From positions 23,899 through 87,898 of the forward strand of contig JACQMO010000019.1 in the NCBI GenBank assembly GCA_016203535.1: a stretch of 64,000 nucleotides of DNA, read 5' to 3'. How positions within the stretch are numbered: the first letter of the stretch is position 1; every line of letters starts with the position of its first letter. Below are positions 18,247 through 24,212 of the stretch, piece after piece. Both the position numbers and the translations under genes were made by a program. Source of the stretch: Candidatus Uhrbacteria bacterium (GTDB lineage Bacteria; Patescibacteriota; Patescibacteriia; 2-12-FULL-60-25). Under the pieces are notes generated by a model. That model made no database searches. It worked only from the letters and a program-made list of their open reading frames with translations, and was not told the origin of the DNA.

Positions 18247-18774
18247 ATGGCACGATATAGATCCCTGTTCGACACGGTGATCTCGGGCGTCGCAACGGAC
18301 GACATGGTCGGTCCGACGCGGGCGCGACGGTCGGAATGCGGCGTGTGGAGGCAGGTCTCGGAAGAGATCCTGCAGGAAGCGGCCGAGCCGACGGAGGAAG
18401 ACGACGAGGATCTCCTCGATCTCTTCTACCAGAGCGACGCGGAGGAAGACGACCCTCCGAGCCGCGACACGGAAGAGGACTTGGGACTCCATTCCGTTGT
18501 GTCCGTTGTGCGCCTCGAAAAGCGACGCCACGAGCTCCGAGAGGAGATCGCATGGCGCGGCCGCGTGATCGAGCATCTGCGCGAATGCCGGACGGAGCAC
18601 GCGCTCCAGGAAGCGGTCCGCGCACAGACCCGCGACCGCGACGAGTTGGAACGGATCGATGTCCAGCTGCGGAACGCGCGGATCCTGCGCCCGCCGCAGA
18701 TCGTCTTCACGGACGACCCGCTGCCGGCGACCTCCGCGGCGCTTCTGCCGCCTCGGAACGGGAAGCCGAACTAG
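18247..18774 (+). CDS. Hypothetical acidic protein, 175 aa (island ORF4)
   Basis: AGGAGGAAATGG-ATG context; MARYRSLFDTVISGVATDDMVG. Confidence 0.7.
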   Translation: MARYRSLFDTVISGVATDDMVGPTRARRSECGVWRQVSEEILQEAAEPTEEDDEDLLDLFYQSDAEEDDPPSRDTEEDLGLHSVVSVVRLEKRRHELREEIAWRGRVIEHLRECRTEHALQEAVRAQTRDRDELERIDVQLRNARILRPPQIVFTDDPLPATSAALLPPRNGKPN

Positions 18775-18794
18775 CAGCACGTCTCACCTTTCTT

Positions 18795-18861
18795 GAGCCC
18801 TCATCGGTGATGAGGGCTCCCCGCGTCTTCCGCCGATCGATCAACGACGGAAGACGCGGGG
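18795..18861 (+). repeat. Two abutting long hairpins between island ORF4 and ORF5
   Basis: GAGCCCTCATC-GGT-GATGAGGGCTC (18795-18819, 11 bp) and CCCCGCGTCTTCCG...CGGAAGACGCGGGG (18819-18861, 14 bp), both perfect. Confidence 0.85.
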
Positions 18862-18891
18862 AATCACCCCCGCACTTTCAAAGGAGACCGG

Positions 18892-19404
18892 ATGTCCAAG
18901 CAACGGATCGTCATCGTCCACGTCATCCGACGGGAGACGGCCGTAGACGCGTCGCCGACGCGGGTATCCTTCGAACTGGCGGAACGCCTCCGGGACGAAG
19001 GATTCGTGTGGCTGGAGAAACGCGCGAGCGGACTACGACTCCGTCAGCGCGTGCTCCAGGAACGCCTTGACCGCGTCGAAGAGGCGCGGGCGGTCGTCAA
19101 AAAGCAGCTCATCGAGTGCACGGCTCCGAAGACGGCGAAAACGTTCGTCGTCGCGGCTTCCGAGCACACGACGCGGCGGCTCCTGGACCGGGCGCTCCGC
19201 CGTTTCGAGACGATTTCGGCGATGCGCGAGAAGCTGCTCCGGCGGCTCGATCGGGTCGAAGGATGGCTCCGAACGCTCGACGAGGAACGACGGTCCGTCC
19301 TGCGCATGTACTTCCGGCAGATTTCGCCGCCGGACGCGCCGAAACGGTCTCGTTCCAACGTCTCGGCGGTCACCGTCCCCCGTGCGTTCGTTTCCGCTCC
19401 GTAA
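18892..19404 (+). CDS. Hypothetical basic coiled-coil protein, 170 aa (island ORF5)
   Basis: AAAGGAGACCGG-ATG context; MSKQRIVIVHVIRRETAVD. Confidence 0.7.
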   Translation: MSKQRIVIVHVIRRETAVDASPTRVSFELAERLRDEGFVWLEKRASGLRLRQRVLQERLDRVEEARAVVKKQLIECTAPKTAKTFVVAASEHTTRRLLDRALRRFETISAMREKLLRRLDRVEGWLRTLDEERRSVLRMYFRQISPPDAPKRSRSNVSAVTVPRAFVSAP

Positions 19405-19407
19405 CTC

Positions 19408-19483
19408 GGGGAGTCGTTCGTGCCCTCTCACGGCGACTCCCCCTCCTGCCGATCGCCTCATGCGAGGGACGCTCGGCAGGAGG
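19408..19483 (+). repeat. Two abutting long hairpins between island ORF5 and ORF6
   Basis: GGGGAGTCG...CGACTCCCC (19408-19442) and CCTCCTGCCGA...TCGGCAGGAGG (19442-19483). Confidence 0.8.
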
Positions 19484-19572
19484 ACGCTGTTTCACAACGT
19501 AATCAGGTGCCCGTCCGATGTTCGGACGCGGCGCTTCATCACCACGGGCCCTCACGGGCCAAGGAGGACACA

Positions 19573-20430
19573 GTGAGAAAAGCCGCGCACATGGACCTGC
19601 CGCTCAACCGGCAACATCCCTGCTTCCGCATGAAGTTCACCAACAAGCCGGTCTACGACAACGGCGAACACCAGCCCGTCCCGGCCGAGCTCATCCGGCT
19701 CATCCACGGCCCGGACTGCAAGGTGGAGCTGCCGGACTTCAAGACGAGCGTCGTCATCCACGTCTGCGACGACGACCGGCTGACGCAGCACGAGGCGCTA
19801 CAGAGGGTCAGCGACCCGACGGACGAGGAAGCCGAGTCCCTGGCGGAACGGATCGAGTTGCCGCCGGAGTGGCATCCGGCCTTCGTCGCGCATTTCGGGG
19901 AAGAGCCGACGGAGGACGACCGCCGGGCATCGCTCCGGGAGACCGCCCGGAAACTCCTGAAGGAGGAGCGGCGGGTCCTCACGGACCTGCCGGAAGAAAC
20001 GGTCACGGCCATCCGAGAAAAACGGATGGACGTGTACGAGATCCCTCCGGAGCGCCACGCCGACAAGCGGCGATGGCCGATGTGTACGGTCCAGTTGAAC
20101 TACCTCCTCCCCATGCTGACCCACGGGAAGGTACGGTCCGACATGTGGTCGGACGGACCCAGGCGGTTCGTCATGCTGACGCATCTGCGCGACAGCGGGT
20201 TCAAGTGGATCGCCGTGGTGTACATGCCGCGGCGCGAACGGAAGGGGTTCGTCATCGCCTTCCCGTTCGAGATCCTGCTCCGCACCCTCGAGACCAAGCA
20301 CGACGTGATCGCCCGGGACTACGCGAACTTCCTCGACCGGCACCCCTCGCCGCGATACCGGCCGGACCGCCAGCGCAACGACCGCCGGCGATCCGGACGC
20401 GACGAACCGGACGAGAACGATGACGACTGA
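19573..20430 (+). CDS. Hypothetical protein, ~285 aa, GTG start (island ORF6)
   Basis: AAGGAGGACACA-GTG; VRKAAHMDLPLNRQHPCFRMKFTNKPVYDNGEHQPVPAELIRLIHG. Confidence 0.7.
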   Translation: MRKAAHMDLPLNRQHPCFRMKFTNKPVYDNGEHQPVPAELIRLIHGPDCKVELPDFKTSVVIHVCDDDRLTQHEALQRVSDPTDEEAESLAERIELPPEWHPAFVAHFGEEPTEDDRRASLRETARKLLKEERRVLTDLPEETVTAIREKRMDVYEIPPERHADKRRWPMCTVQLNYLLPMLTHGKVRSDMWSDGPRRFVMLTHLRDSGFKWIAVVYMPRRERKGFVIAFPFEILLRTLETKHDVIARDYANFLDRHPSPRYRPDRQRNDRRRSGRDEPDENDDD

Positions 20431-20536: not shown

Positions 20537-20555
20537 CTTTCATAATGAGGTTGTG

Positions 20556-20990
20556 ATGAACGCACAGCGCGCGCAACGGGGGATTGTGATGTACCGCGCG
20601 GAAGGAAATCTCCTCCGCCCGACGGTGTGGCAACGCGACGAAGGCGAATCGGAATACGCCTCGTCCGACGAGGCGCCACACGCCGTGAACTTGAGCTTCT
20701 ACGTGATCGTTCGCAGCGGCGCCCGATGGGAAATCGGACTCCTGCAGGCGACGGACGTCCCGGAGCTCGATGCGCAACTGCTTGAGCAAGCCGGATTCCA
20801 CGGATGGGTCTCCATCCATACGAAGGATGGCGCTTCCCCCCTTCGCTGTCGAAAAACCCTCGACGACGCCGGCCTGAAGCGCCTGCTCCTCGGCTATGCC
20901 GACATGCTCTCGCGTATCTTCAACGTGAAAAATGCAGATATGCACCTCCGCGCCGCCCGCGTTCTCCACGGCCATCCCCTGACGGACTGA
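20556..20990 (+). CDS. Hypothetical protein, ~144 aa (island ORF7)
   Basis: MNAQRAQRGIVMYRAEGNLLRPTVWQRDEGESEYAS; promoter upstream, terminator downstream. Confidence 0.7.
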   Translation: MNAQRAQRGIVMYRAEGNLLRPTVWQRDEGESEYASSDEAPHAVNLSFYVIVRSGARWEIGLLQATDVPELDAQLLEQAGFHGWVSIHTKDGASPLRCRKTLDDAGLKRLLLGYADMLSRIFNVKNADMHLRAARVLHGHPLTD

Positions 20991-21010: not shown

Positions 21011-21038
21011 CCGACCCGCCCCCCACGGTCGGTTTTTT
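21011..21038 (+). terminator. Rho-independent terminator after island ORF7
   Basis: CCGACC...GGTCGG followed by TTTTTT. Confidence 0.75.
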
Positions 21039-21051
21039 GTTTTACCGCTCA

Positions 21052-21085
21052 TTGACAAAACCCTCCGTACTTCCCATCATGGGAT
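21052..21085 (+). promoter_or_regulatory. Promoter with operator-like palindrome for the rod-like RNA
   Basis: TTGACA (21052) with CATCAT 17 bp downstream; TTCCCAT-C-ATGGGAT palindrome over the -10. Confidence 0.5.
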
Positions 21086-21092
21086 CATTCCC

Positions 21093-21241
21093 GTCTTTGG
21101 AGCTGCGAAGCGGGGCACGTTCCTTAGATATCGGACTCCGTGGACTCCGTCATGTCGCCTTCGGTGACGTGACGGAATTCTCTCCTCCCATGGGGATCGA
21201 CATCTTCCTTTTACGTGGCAACGCTTTGCAGCTCCAAGGAT
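21093..21241 (+). ncRNA. Rod-shaped structured ncRNA, 6S-RNA-like architecture
   Basis: ~19-bp closing helix (21093-21112 / 21222-21241, with G:U), several internal helices (116-120/213-217, 126-133/198-205, 136-143/188-195) and a 14-bp apical hairpin TCCGTCATGTCGCC-TTC-GGTGACGTGACGGA (21146-21176). Confidence 0.65.
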
Positions 21242-21268
21242 AGAAAAAAACGATATACGTGCTGACGT

Positions 21269-21994
21269 TTATTGAGGCGAAATAGTGGATGTGGAACGTA
21301 GATCAACTTCGTCCGACGACGCCATTTCCCGACCGTATGTGACATGACGGACCTGCCGGACCGGGGACCCGTAGCGGCGACGCGCTTCCACGGAAATGAC
21401 GCTCACGCCGCGCGGAATGTCGAATTCAATGCGGAACTGGCCGTCGGGCGAAACCACGGCGCGCGCGCCGTTCACCGTCACGAGCGCGTTCGGGGCCGTC
21501 TCGCCCTGGACGGAGACGCGCGGGTGGAGGAATTCCGCGCCGTCCTGCGGAGTGAAGATCCGAAGCGGCGGAGGATCCTGGAGCAGATAGGCCTGCCAAA
21601 ACACGTACCCCCCTCCCGCGGCGGCGATCGCGAGGAATCCGAGCACCGCTACCACACGCGACGTCACGAAAAAATCCCGACGCCGAACGGTCGGACGGAC
21701 GCGCATCACGTCGGCGGAAACAAGGCCCAGCTCCACGAGGAGCTGCCGGTATTTTTGCAAGAAGTATCCGGGTCGCCCTTCGAGCGCCGCGGCGAGCGTG
21801 CGGACATGCCGTTCCGCATACATCGGATCCGTCAGTTCGTTCAGCCGTTCCTCCTCAAAGGCCGCGATGATCGAGGGGTGGATGCGCGTCCGTTCGGAAA
21901 GCTCCTCACGGGTAAATCCGCGCAGCTCCCGAAGCTCGCGCAAGGATCCGCCAAACCGGCCCTCGACGCCCAGATGTTTGTGGACGAATGACAT
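21269..21994 (-). CDS. RodZ-like HTH membrane protein
   Basis: LRELRELRGFTREELSERTRIHPSIIAAFEEER HTH, single TM, Ig-like C-terminal domain. Confidence 0.8.
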   Translation of the reverse strand: MSFVHKHLGVEGRFGGSLRELRELRGFTREELSERTRIHPSIIAAFEEERLNELTDPMYAERHVRTLAAALEGRPGYFLQKYRQLLVELGLVSADVMRVRPTVRRRDFFVTSRVVAVLGFLAIAAAGGGYVFWQAYLLQDPPPLRIFTPQDGAEFLHPRVSVQGETAPNALVTVNGARAVVSPDGQFRIEFDIPRGVSVISVEARRRYGSPVRQVRHVTYGREMASSDEVDLRSTSTISPQ

Positions 21995-21998
21995 GCCC

Positions 21999-24212
21999 TT
22001 AATGCTCTTCGTCGAACGCCTCGATCGGGGGATCGTTTGATGGGATCGGGACCTGATCCATTTGGCGGGTGAACTGGACGTTCAAAATCTCACGCGGCTT
22101 CGCGCCGTCGCCCGGACCGATGAATCCTTCCTGTTCCAGGAGGTCCAGGATCCGCGCCGCGCGGGCATATCCGACTTTCAACCGGCGCTGCAGCAGGGAA
22201 GCCGACGCTTTCCCGGCGCGAAGGATTTCTTCCTTGGCGTCCGGCAGGAACGGATCGGACTCGTCGTCGATCGGAATCCCGTTCGTGAACCGCGTTTCGC
22301 TCGATGCGCGGTCGAACACCGAGAGGTCGTAGTCCGCCGGCTCGTACTTCGATTTCATGAAATCCACCACGCGCTTGATCTCATCGTCGGCGACGAACGC
22401 GCCCTGGAGGCGCCGCGGCGTCGCCATTTCGGCGGTGACGAACAACATGTCGCCGCGCCCGAGGAGTTTTTCCGCGCCCATCTGGTCGAGGATCGTCCGC
22501 GAATCCGTCTGCGACGCGACGGCAAACGCGATGCGCGCCGGGATGTTCGCCTTGATGAGGCCGGTGATGACGTCCACCGATGGCCGCTGCGTCGCGAGCA
22601 CGAGGTGGATCCCCACCGCACGCGACATCTGCGCAAGCCGGACGATCGCGCCCTCCACCTCCGCCATCGCGGTCATCATGAGATCCGCGAGTTCGTCCAC
22701 CACGATCACGATGTTCGGCATCCGCTCCTCCGCGCGCTGGTTGTAACTGGGGAGGTCGCGCGCGCCGAAATTCGACAGCACGTCGAACCGTCGGTCCATC
22801 TCGCGGAGCGCCCACTTGAGCGCGTTCACGGTCTTTTCCGTCTCGGTGATCACCGGGACGATGAGGTGCGGGATGCCGTTATAGATGGGGAGTTCGACGC
22901 GTTTCGGGTCCACGAGGATGAGCTTGAGCTCCTCCGGCCCATTCGCATACAGCATGGACACGAGGAGCGTGTTGAGGCACACCGATTTCCCGGACCCCGT
23001 GGCGCCGGCGACGAGGAGGTGCGGCATGCGCGCGAGATCGGACACGGCCGGCTTGCCGGAAACGTCCTTCCCGACGGCGAACGTCAAGTTTGACGCGCGC
23101 TCCCGCCATTCGCGCGACTCGAGCATCTCGCGGATCCCGACCGTCGCGACGGACTGGTTCGGAACTTCGATCCCCACGAGCGATTTTCCCGGGATGGGCG
23201 CCTCGATCCGGATGGGATGGGCCGCGAGCGCCAGCGCCAGATCGTTATGGAGCGCCGTGACCTTCGAGAGCCGGATCCCCTCGCCCGGCTTCAGGGTGAA
23301 CTGCGTCACGGTGGGGCCGACGGCGACCTCTCCCATCTCGGAGGGGATCCCGAAATGTTCGAGCGTCCGTCGGATCACGGCCTGGTTGTGGTCGATGTCT
23401 CCCGAGGTTGGCCGCTGATCCCGTTTCGTAAGAAGCTCAAGAGGCACCTCCACTTTCGGCAGACGCCTTCGGGGACGCGCCGGCGGTTGCTGGCGTTCTG
23501 CCGAACCAGGAACGAGGGTCGGCTCGGATCCGCCTTCCGGTTCCGTATTCTCCACCTCTTCTTCGAGCCCGTCATCCATCCCGCCGGCCGGCTCGGGCGT
23601 TTCGGAAAACTCCATGGCGCTCGGCCGACGGACGAGTCGCGCAAAAAAACCGAACGGAGCCGCGAAGACCCCTCCGACCCGCATCGCCGCGCGGAGCGTT
23701 CCCCGGAGGACGGACAGGATGCGCCGAAGGGACGTGTTGAAAATGAAGAGGAGGGAAATGACGACGAGCGCGGCGAACAGGATCCCGGCGCCGACCGTCC
23801 CGAAAAAGTACGCCGATGGCTCGGCGAGCGTCTCTCCCAAGAGGCCGCCGGCCGTCAAAAGCGCCTCATCCGAAGCCGGAACCCCGCTGAAGGTAAGAAG
23901 ATGGACGAGCGGATTGAGCGACAGGAAAAACAGGGTGAACCCGACATAGTTCGCGACGCGCAGCGGGTATCGATCGGGGATGACGCCGTGCGTGCCGATT
24001 GCGAGGAGAAAAAATGGGAGGACGATCTTGTCCCAGCCGAACAGCATGGACATGAACCCATCCAGTCCCTCGCCGAGCCGGCCGGCGAGATCGAAAAGCG
24101 CGAGCAGGAGGAGCGCGGCGAAAACGAACACGGCGACCGTAAACACCCCGCGGCGCGTTTCCGGATTGAGGGAAAAATCGAATCGTGGCGTTCTCTGGCG
24201 GCGGCGCTTCAT
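21999..24212 (-). CDS. ftsK: DNA translocase FtsK/SpoIIIE
   Basis: LLVAGATGSGKSVCLNTLLVSML; N-terminal TM segments; C-terminal gamma domain. Confidence 0.96.
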   Translation of the reverse strand: MKRRRQRTPRFDFSLNPETRRGVFTVAVFVFAALLLLALFDLAGRLGEGLDGFMSMLFGWDKIVLPFFLLAIGTHGVIPDRYPLRVANYVGFTLFFLSLNPLVHLLTFSGVPASDEALLTAGGLLGETLAEPSAYFFGTVGAGILFAALVVISLLFIFNTSLRRILSVLRGTLRAAMRVGGVFAAPFGFFARLVRRPSAMEFSETPEPAGGMDDGLEEEVENTEPEGGSEPTLVPGSAERQQPPARPRRRLPKVEVPLELLTKRDQRPTSGDIDHNQAVIRRTLEHFGIPSEMGEVAVGPTVTQFTLKPGEGIRLSKVTALHNDLALALAAHPIRIEAPIPGKSLVGIEVPNQSVATVGIREMLESREWRERASNLTFAVGKDVSGKPAVSDLARMPHLLVAGATGSGKSVCLNTLLVSMLYANGPEELKLILVDPKRVELPIYNGIPHLIVPVITETEKTVNALKWALREMDRRFDVLSNFGARDLPSYNQRAEERMPNIVIVVDELADLMMTAMAEVEGAIVRLAQMSRAVGIHLVLATQRPSVDVITGLIKANIPARIAFAVASQTDSRTILDQMGAEKLLGRGDMLFVTAEMATPRRLQGAFVADDEIKRVVDFMKSKYEPADYDLSVFDRASSETRFTNGIPIDDESDPFLPDAKEEILRAGKASASLLQRRLKVGYARAARILDLLEQEGFIGPGDGAKPREILNVQFTRQMDQVPIPSNDPPIEAFDEEH

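Follow-up and report, generated by a model that had tools for sequence, protein, structure and literature searches.

The small RNA Yfr1 of cyanobacteria carries an ultraconserved unpaired undecamer, ACUCCUCACAC, between its helices (PMC2190773), and it represses the translation of a target in a reporter assay (PMC6778093). Small RNAs with UCCC motifs, exemplified by RNAIII, RsaE and SprD of S. aureus, FsrA of B. subtilis and LhrC of Listeria, bind Shine-Dalgarno (SD) sequences (PMC4132741). Ms1 of Actinobacteria, an RNA of about 300 nt, has been demonstrated by experiment to bind core RNA polymerase (PMC9130861).

The regulatory RNAs of Patescibacteria have hardly been described, and in text searches of the literature neither 6S nor small regulatory RNA proved to be the subject of any paper on this group of ultra-small, reduced bacteria. 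The present work examines a segment of a 64,000-nucleotide stretch of DNA from Candidatus Uhrbacteria bacterium, referred to below as the window. The segment, almost certainly a real and conserved non-coding RNA, belongs to an undescribed Patescibacteria family of RNAs of about 150 nt, single-copy and, by their signals, separately transcribed, which is distributed over many genera of one class and has no entry in Rfam 15. In the preferred explanation, this rod-shaped RNA would act in trans by presenting a CU-rich strand, most likely to purine-rich, SD-like mRNA sequences, base pairing as the mechanism having a probability of roughly 0.4. Its parts and surroundings in the window are as follows.

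21052-21057 (+): -35-like element TTGACA, which most relatives have at an equal distance before the RNA
21075-21080 (+): -10-like element CATCAT after a 17-nt spacer, completing a promoter-like site
21093-21241 (+): rod-shaped ncRNA, structured part (fold, homologues, covariation)
21093-21112 (+): 5' arm of the basal stem with a conserved CUGCG core, pairing with 21222-21241
21116-21120 (+): 5' strand of the ACGU helix, within a conserved GYACGN (fold and covariation)
21126-21143 (+): 5' strand of the middle helices (fold and covariation)
21146-21176 (+): apical hairpin of 14 bp with a UUC loop (fold and covariation)
21177-21187 (+): one-sided 11-nt bulge holding UCUCUCCUC at 21179-21187 (motif counts and fold)
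21188-21205 (+): 3' strand of the middle helices (fold and covariation)
21213-21217 (+): 3' strand of the ACGU helix, with a conserved bulged G after it (NCGUGGC; fold and covariation)
21222-21241 (+): 3' arm of the basal stem with a conserved GCAG core (fold and covariation)
21269-21994 (-): gene for a RodZ-like protein (HTH_25), the convergent neighbour, beside the RNA in 29 of 29 family loci
21999-24212 (-): ftsK, the gene after the RodZ-like gene, near the RNA in other families too

Structure and distribution of the rod RNA

The segment folds into a single rod with an MFE of -86 kcal/mol, compared to -46.5 +/- 4.1 for dinucleotide shuffles (z -9.6), none of 200 shuffles being equally stable; the opposite strand folds less stably, at -65 kcal/mol. 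The initial annotation, which described a rod-shaped ncRNA of about 149 nt at this place, was exact in its coordinates, and the features that it read from the letters are reproduced in the fold: the ends pair over 20 bp, including three G:U pairs, the interior helices are collinear, and the 14-bp hairpin with its UUC loop forms the cap. Between the ACGU helix and the bulge lie a 5x7 internal loop and a run of short helices. The source genome, a draft of 0.81 Mb in 30 contigs, contains one copy.

By DNA similarity, the rod RNA has partial matches in further genomes of its GTDB family. A covariance model built from six sequences (R1) matches in 29 of the 41 family genomes and 13 of the 21 genera, and R3 adds four genomes, such that the RNA is found in 33 of 41. 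R2 and R3, the further models used for class-wide searches, locate it in at least 61 and at least 79 genomes, respectively, of a class sample of 381, and outside the class it occurs in at least four genomes (families f107, f118 and f119); these counts are lower bounds, due to strict filters and the few candidates scored per genome. Chance matches in 2 Mb of related genomes reach at most 13.8 bits, which sets the false-positive ceiling, compared to about 23-28 bits for the weakest accepted matches; E-values in general are rough owing to a shortened calibration. The matches extend over about 113-184 nt, and the models can be rebuilt from the listed loci. Possible second copies are seen in two family genomes (G014:C4:786279-786395 and G057:C4:20003-20159). 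As a phylum-wide probe, the exact 14-mer AAATCTCTCTCCTC gives only a weak excess, with 15 genomes versus 6 for the reversed control pattern.

Strong covariation shows that the rod structure is under selection. In the family alignment (n=27, mean identity 0.52), standard pairs fill 88.7% of the pair cells versus 66.7% after shuffling, and pairing falls to only 38-44% when the partners are slid by one to three columns; in the class-wide alignment (n=42, mean identity 0.48) the values are 89.2% and 62.0%. Both alignments were fitted to the structure, which biases them toward pairing, but by far less than the distance that separates them from both controls. Double changes are present in 48 of 54 pairs in the family (17 of 21 in the basal stem) and in 50 of 54 class-wide. 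The pairing at the RNA level that the initial annotation had suspected from the G:U pairs is thereby borne out, as is its conservation in related genomes. The ACGU helix (helix 2) is paired in 97.5% of the alignment cells, and the apical hairpin retains its pairing among the relatives while its length and sequence differ.

An invariant unpaired motif

Nearly all of the RNA is free to change, with the exception of nine unpaired bases. The 8-mer UCUCUCCU, part of an unpaired UCUCUCCU(C), is found in 70 of 71 copies and in all 42 rows of the class-wide alignment, although mean identity is 0.48-0.52; model selection may inflate this invariance for the weakest matches, yet not for the family copies supported by synteny. 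Columns conserved class-wide at 95% or more comprise all of UCUCUCCUC, the UGCG, GC and G of the basal stem, and one G of the second helix. The bulge holding UCUCUCCUC lies where the apical hairpin begins and is one-sided, with a median of 13 nt versus 0-3 nt opposite. Among the 54 copies in which no base of the 8-mer is paired in the MFE structure, 10-16 nt are unpaired on that strand and 0-3 on the other. In three copies of family f15 (L059, L064 and L067) the motif lies 5' of the apical hairpin rather than 3' of it, still unpaired, and its placement in L213 and L217 (f56) is similar; in L214 it lies between two hairpins. Since the motif switches between the strands of the rod yet remains unpaired, it is the displayed strand, and not its place in the rod, that seems to matter. 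The sole exception, L036:1501-1648 (-), is a syntenic family copy that has kept the rod, has lost UCUCUCCU and carries GCUUUUCCUCC in its place, a natural variant worthy of study.

Transcription signals and coding potential

The TTGACA-type promoter that had been noted 5' of the RNA is present as TTGACA-17-CATCAT at 21052-21080, its 3' end 13 nt upstream of the rod, and transcription would thus start at about 21087 (+). With a sigma70-like site scoring at least 9 of 12 within 62 nt upstream as the measure, promoters precede 47 of 63 loci; the opposite strand has 1 of 63, and shuffles would give 4.3. Intrinsic terminators within 70 nt downstream follow 34 of 63 loci (none of 63 on the opposite strand, 3.3 expected); no clear terminator follows the rod RNA in the window itself. 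The RNA thus has promoter-like signals of its own, in many relatives terminator signals as well, and these on one strand only.

The statement that no ORF fits the segment does not hold literally, as a 68-codon frame from a TTG at 21037 to 21243 crosses it, yet in substance it stands, for this frame is not a gene: taken modulo 3, the lengths of the family RNAs are spread over every residue, and the changes keep base pairs. These lengths, together with a sense strand that is more stable than the antisense in 49 of 59 loci, indicate an RNA, as opposed to a protein-coding gene or a palindrome at the DNA level. The long, near-palindromic arms are what a DNA-level inverted repeat would also display, be it a MITE, a REP-like element or a protein-binding palindrome. 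Such an origin is refuted by the single copy per genome, the synteny, the retained G:U pairs, the asymmetry of the strands in both stability and transcription signals, and the invariance of the loop instead of the arms, and it retains practically no probability.

Genomic neighbourhood

In the window, 28 bp separate the rod RNA from the stop codon of the convergent RodZ-like gene, and in the family loci the RNA is likewise convergent to a RodZ-like gene that adjoins ftsK. The initial annotation had placed the RNA at the end of an island; its synteny beside the RodZ-like gene in all 29 family loci does not support this, and by the same token the RNA looks vertically inherited. Among 42 loci outside the family, with gene identities assigned by Pfam, rpoB is nearby in 23, ftsK in 14 and recA or rodZ in some; at least one of the four is near the RNA in 30 of 42, in eight families. 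That these neighbours recur is evidence of common descent that does not depend on the RNA model. On the upstream side in the window, a 145-aa protein (20553-20990, +) has no Pfam match and is kept in close relatives only, and the ORFs around 18247-20430 have no convincing Pfam match.

The fixed convergent arrangement, with those 28 bp in the window and a place beside rodZ in 29 of 29 family loci, together with the location upstream of rpoB in other families, could signify a cis element: in the family a partner of rodZ, antisense or 3', and elsewhere an rpoB leader. Nevertheless, the neighbour varies among families, several of which have none of these genes adjoining, a terminator often lies behind the RNA in relatives, and a separate promoter-like site is situated between the RNA and rpoB in all 15 inspected rpoB loci, which also dismisses the rpoB leader in particular. 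The varied context largely refutes a cis-acting role, which is thus very improbable, and the change of immediate neighbour between families argues for action in trans. As for rpoB itself, this frequent neighbour has no evident SD, and its frame often lies directly behind a terminator-like hairpin and U run (L037, L063, L066, L077, L079 and G041), an arrangement that looks like transcription attenuation of rpoB.

Relationship to 6S RNA and RNA polymerase

The initial annotation proposed a 6S-like architecture, of which the rod, the closing stem, the asymmetric loop and the RNA's own promoter stand; the assignment to 6S is not supported, as a match to the Rfam 6S models and a two-sided bubble are lacking. 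At the window locus no Rfam family, be it RF00013 or any other to which the RNA might be reassigned, gives a match at E <= 10; an Rfam scan of the entire window reports only three tRNAs, and scans of 20 and 19 loci of relatives give no match that matters. Canonical 6S (RF00013) is found in none of 57 genomes of the family and class (G000-G056), in searches whose positive controls were detected. 6S RNA is defined by a central bubble that is open on both strands. The rod RNA is not 6S by any test made and is not to be filed as such.

At the level of function, a role with RNA polymerase is conceivable in view of the lack of canonical 6S in the 57 genomes and of the adjoining rpoB. The RNA would then be a polymerase regulator taking the place of 6S or Ms1 where no 6S is recognisable. 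In this model the rod would bind RNA polymerase, and the CU-rich bulge would either enter the active-site cleft or template a short product starting with GAGGAGAGA. The rod architecture and the gene position, mostly just upstream of rpoB and on the same strand in the 23 of 42 non-family loci, are in line with such a role, for which Ms1 provides the precedent of an unrelated-looking RNA that binds RNA polymerase and replaces 6S (PMC9130861). The evidence against it is that the large loop is one-sided and changes strand between families, the three f15 copies being a misfit with a fixed template/non-template geometry, that no Rfam match exists, and that an invariant pyrimidine strand is foreign to 6S. 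Moreover, recA, rodZ and ftsK are equally frequent neighbours, so the link to rpoB may merely be old gene order. Altogether this role is unlikely. A broader conjecture, slightly less unlikely, is that of a core Patescibacteria RNA replacing 6S, which predates the class and regulates either RNA polymerase, by binding it, or translation initiation globally, through a nonamer on a strand-switchable bulge; if true, reduced, host-dependent bacteria would be regulated by an RNA through one invariant nonamer.

A displayed strand and its possible partners

According to the reading preferred here, the rod would be a scaffold that protects and displays the invariant UCUCUCCUC strand, through which the RNA would act in trans. 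Most likely the strand would pair with AGGAG in purine-rich RNA, namely in Shine-Dalgarno regions, and such pairing would lower the translation of the respective mRNAs in the manner of Yfr1 and the UCCC-motif RNAs. Indeed, UCUCUCCUC is complementary to AGGAG, and the RNA has the trait of SD-blocking CU-rich small RNAs, an unpaired C/U-rich stretch complementary to the SD. The 16S anti-SD GGATCACCTCCTTTCT is intact, and many starts in three genomes have AGGAG upstream. Base pairing as the mechanism is tentative.

No conserved mRNA target emerged from 113 ortholog triples of three families, in a test with heuristic gene starts and with the genomes G326 and G013 read partially: the best motif score was matched by permuted motifs, and the best triple, a DnaK-like protein, did no better than these. 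The full complement shows no enrichment at starts, AGGAGAGA preceding none in 660 kb of G326, and the genome counts of AGGAGAGA are near the composition estimate. It likewise speaks against this mechanism that rpoB, so often beside the RNA, has no evident SD. Two further partners were considered and rejected. As for an rRNA partner, the 23S of G041 contains AGGAGAGA, yet G013 and G326 carry AGCGGAGA at that place. Yfr1 has a companion RNA, Yfr2; for a comparable companion bearing the complement, the intergenic AGGAGAGA sites have no common context between genomes.

In view of the target test and the distribution of the complement, a protein partner, which would account for the invariance just as well, is almost as likely as base pairing and constitutes the main alternative, with RNA polymerase as one candidate. 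The rod RNA would accordingly act as a decoy or scaffold bound by a protein, such as a KH-domain, cold-shock or Rho-like RNA-binding protein or another factor, that reads the single-stranded pyrimidine bulge between two helices. The motif is invariant without a covarying partner or a conserved mRNA target; moreover, when the bulge changes strand, the two helices on its sides trade places and the local geometry is preserved, which a protein site could tolerate. No candidate protein was identified, however, and this proposal in its entirety is rather unlikely, if still worthy of consideration.

Comparison with known RNAs

In its rod shape and similar length, the RNA resembles SRP (4.5S) RNA (RF00169), yet it differs in having neither a match to RF00169 nor a domain IV, and its hairpin loop is not conserved. 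The clade apparently has no recognisable SRP. SRP RNA has no match in the window, the small SRP RNA was found in none of 38 relatives' genomes, and an SRP54-type GTPase gave one weak match above the cut-off among 19 genomes, and no ORF in the 0.93-Mb contig of G041 combines DTAGR with a P-loop; the search controls were positive in 11 and 14 of 14 genomes. In organisms without recognisable 6S, and apparently without SRP, the family provides a concrete handle on global regulation.

With 6S (RF00013) the RNA shares a single long rod with closing stem, terminal stem, internal loops and its own promoter, and it departs from 6S in lacking a covariance-model match, in a one-sided bulge that may lie on either strand and in its invariant pyrimidine loop. 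Like Ms1, it is a lineage-specific RNA with a conserved neighbourhood in bacteria without 6S, whereas Ms1 has a central bubble and extra hairpins, and the rod RNA is known here from sequence only. The UCCC-motif RNAs also offer an unpaired C/U-rich stretch complementary to the SD, yet their short motif is repeated in loops, in contrast to the single invariant nonamer on a long rod. Yfr1, of 54-69 nt, consists of two hairpins with ACUCCUCACAC between them, unlike the single 150-nt rod with its bulged UCUCUCCUC; the two share neither sequence relation nor an Rfam covariance-model match, and a perfect ACUCCUCACAC is absent from the unpaired region of the rod RNA. Nevertheless, both are phylum-specific, housekeeping-like small RNAs with a conserved genome position in many members, and in both an ultraconserved unpaired CU-rich stretch with CUCCUC is held open by helices of variable sequence.
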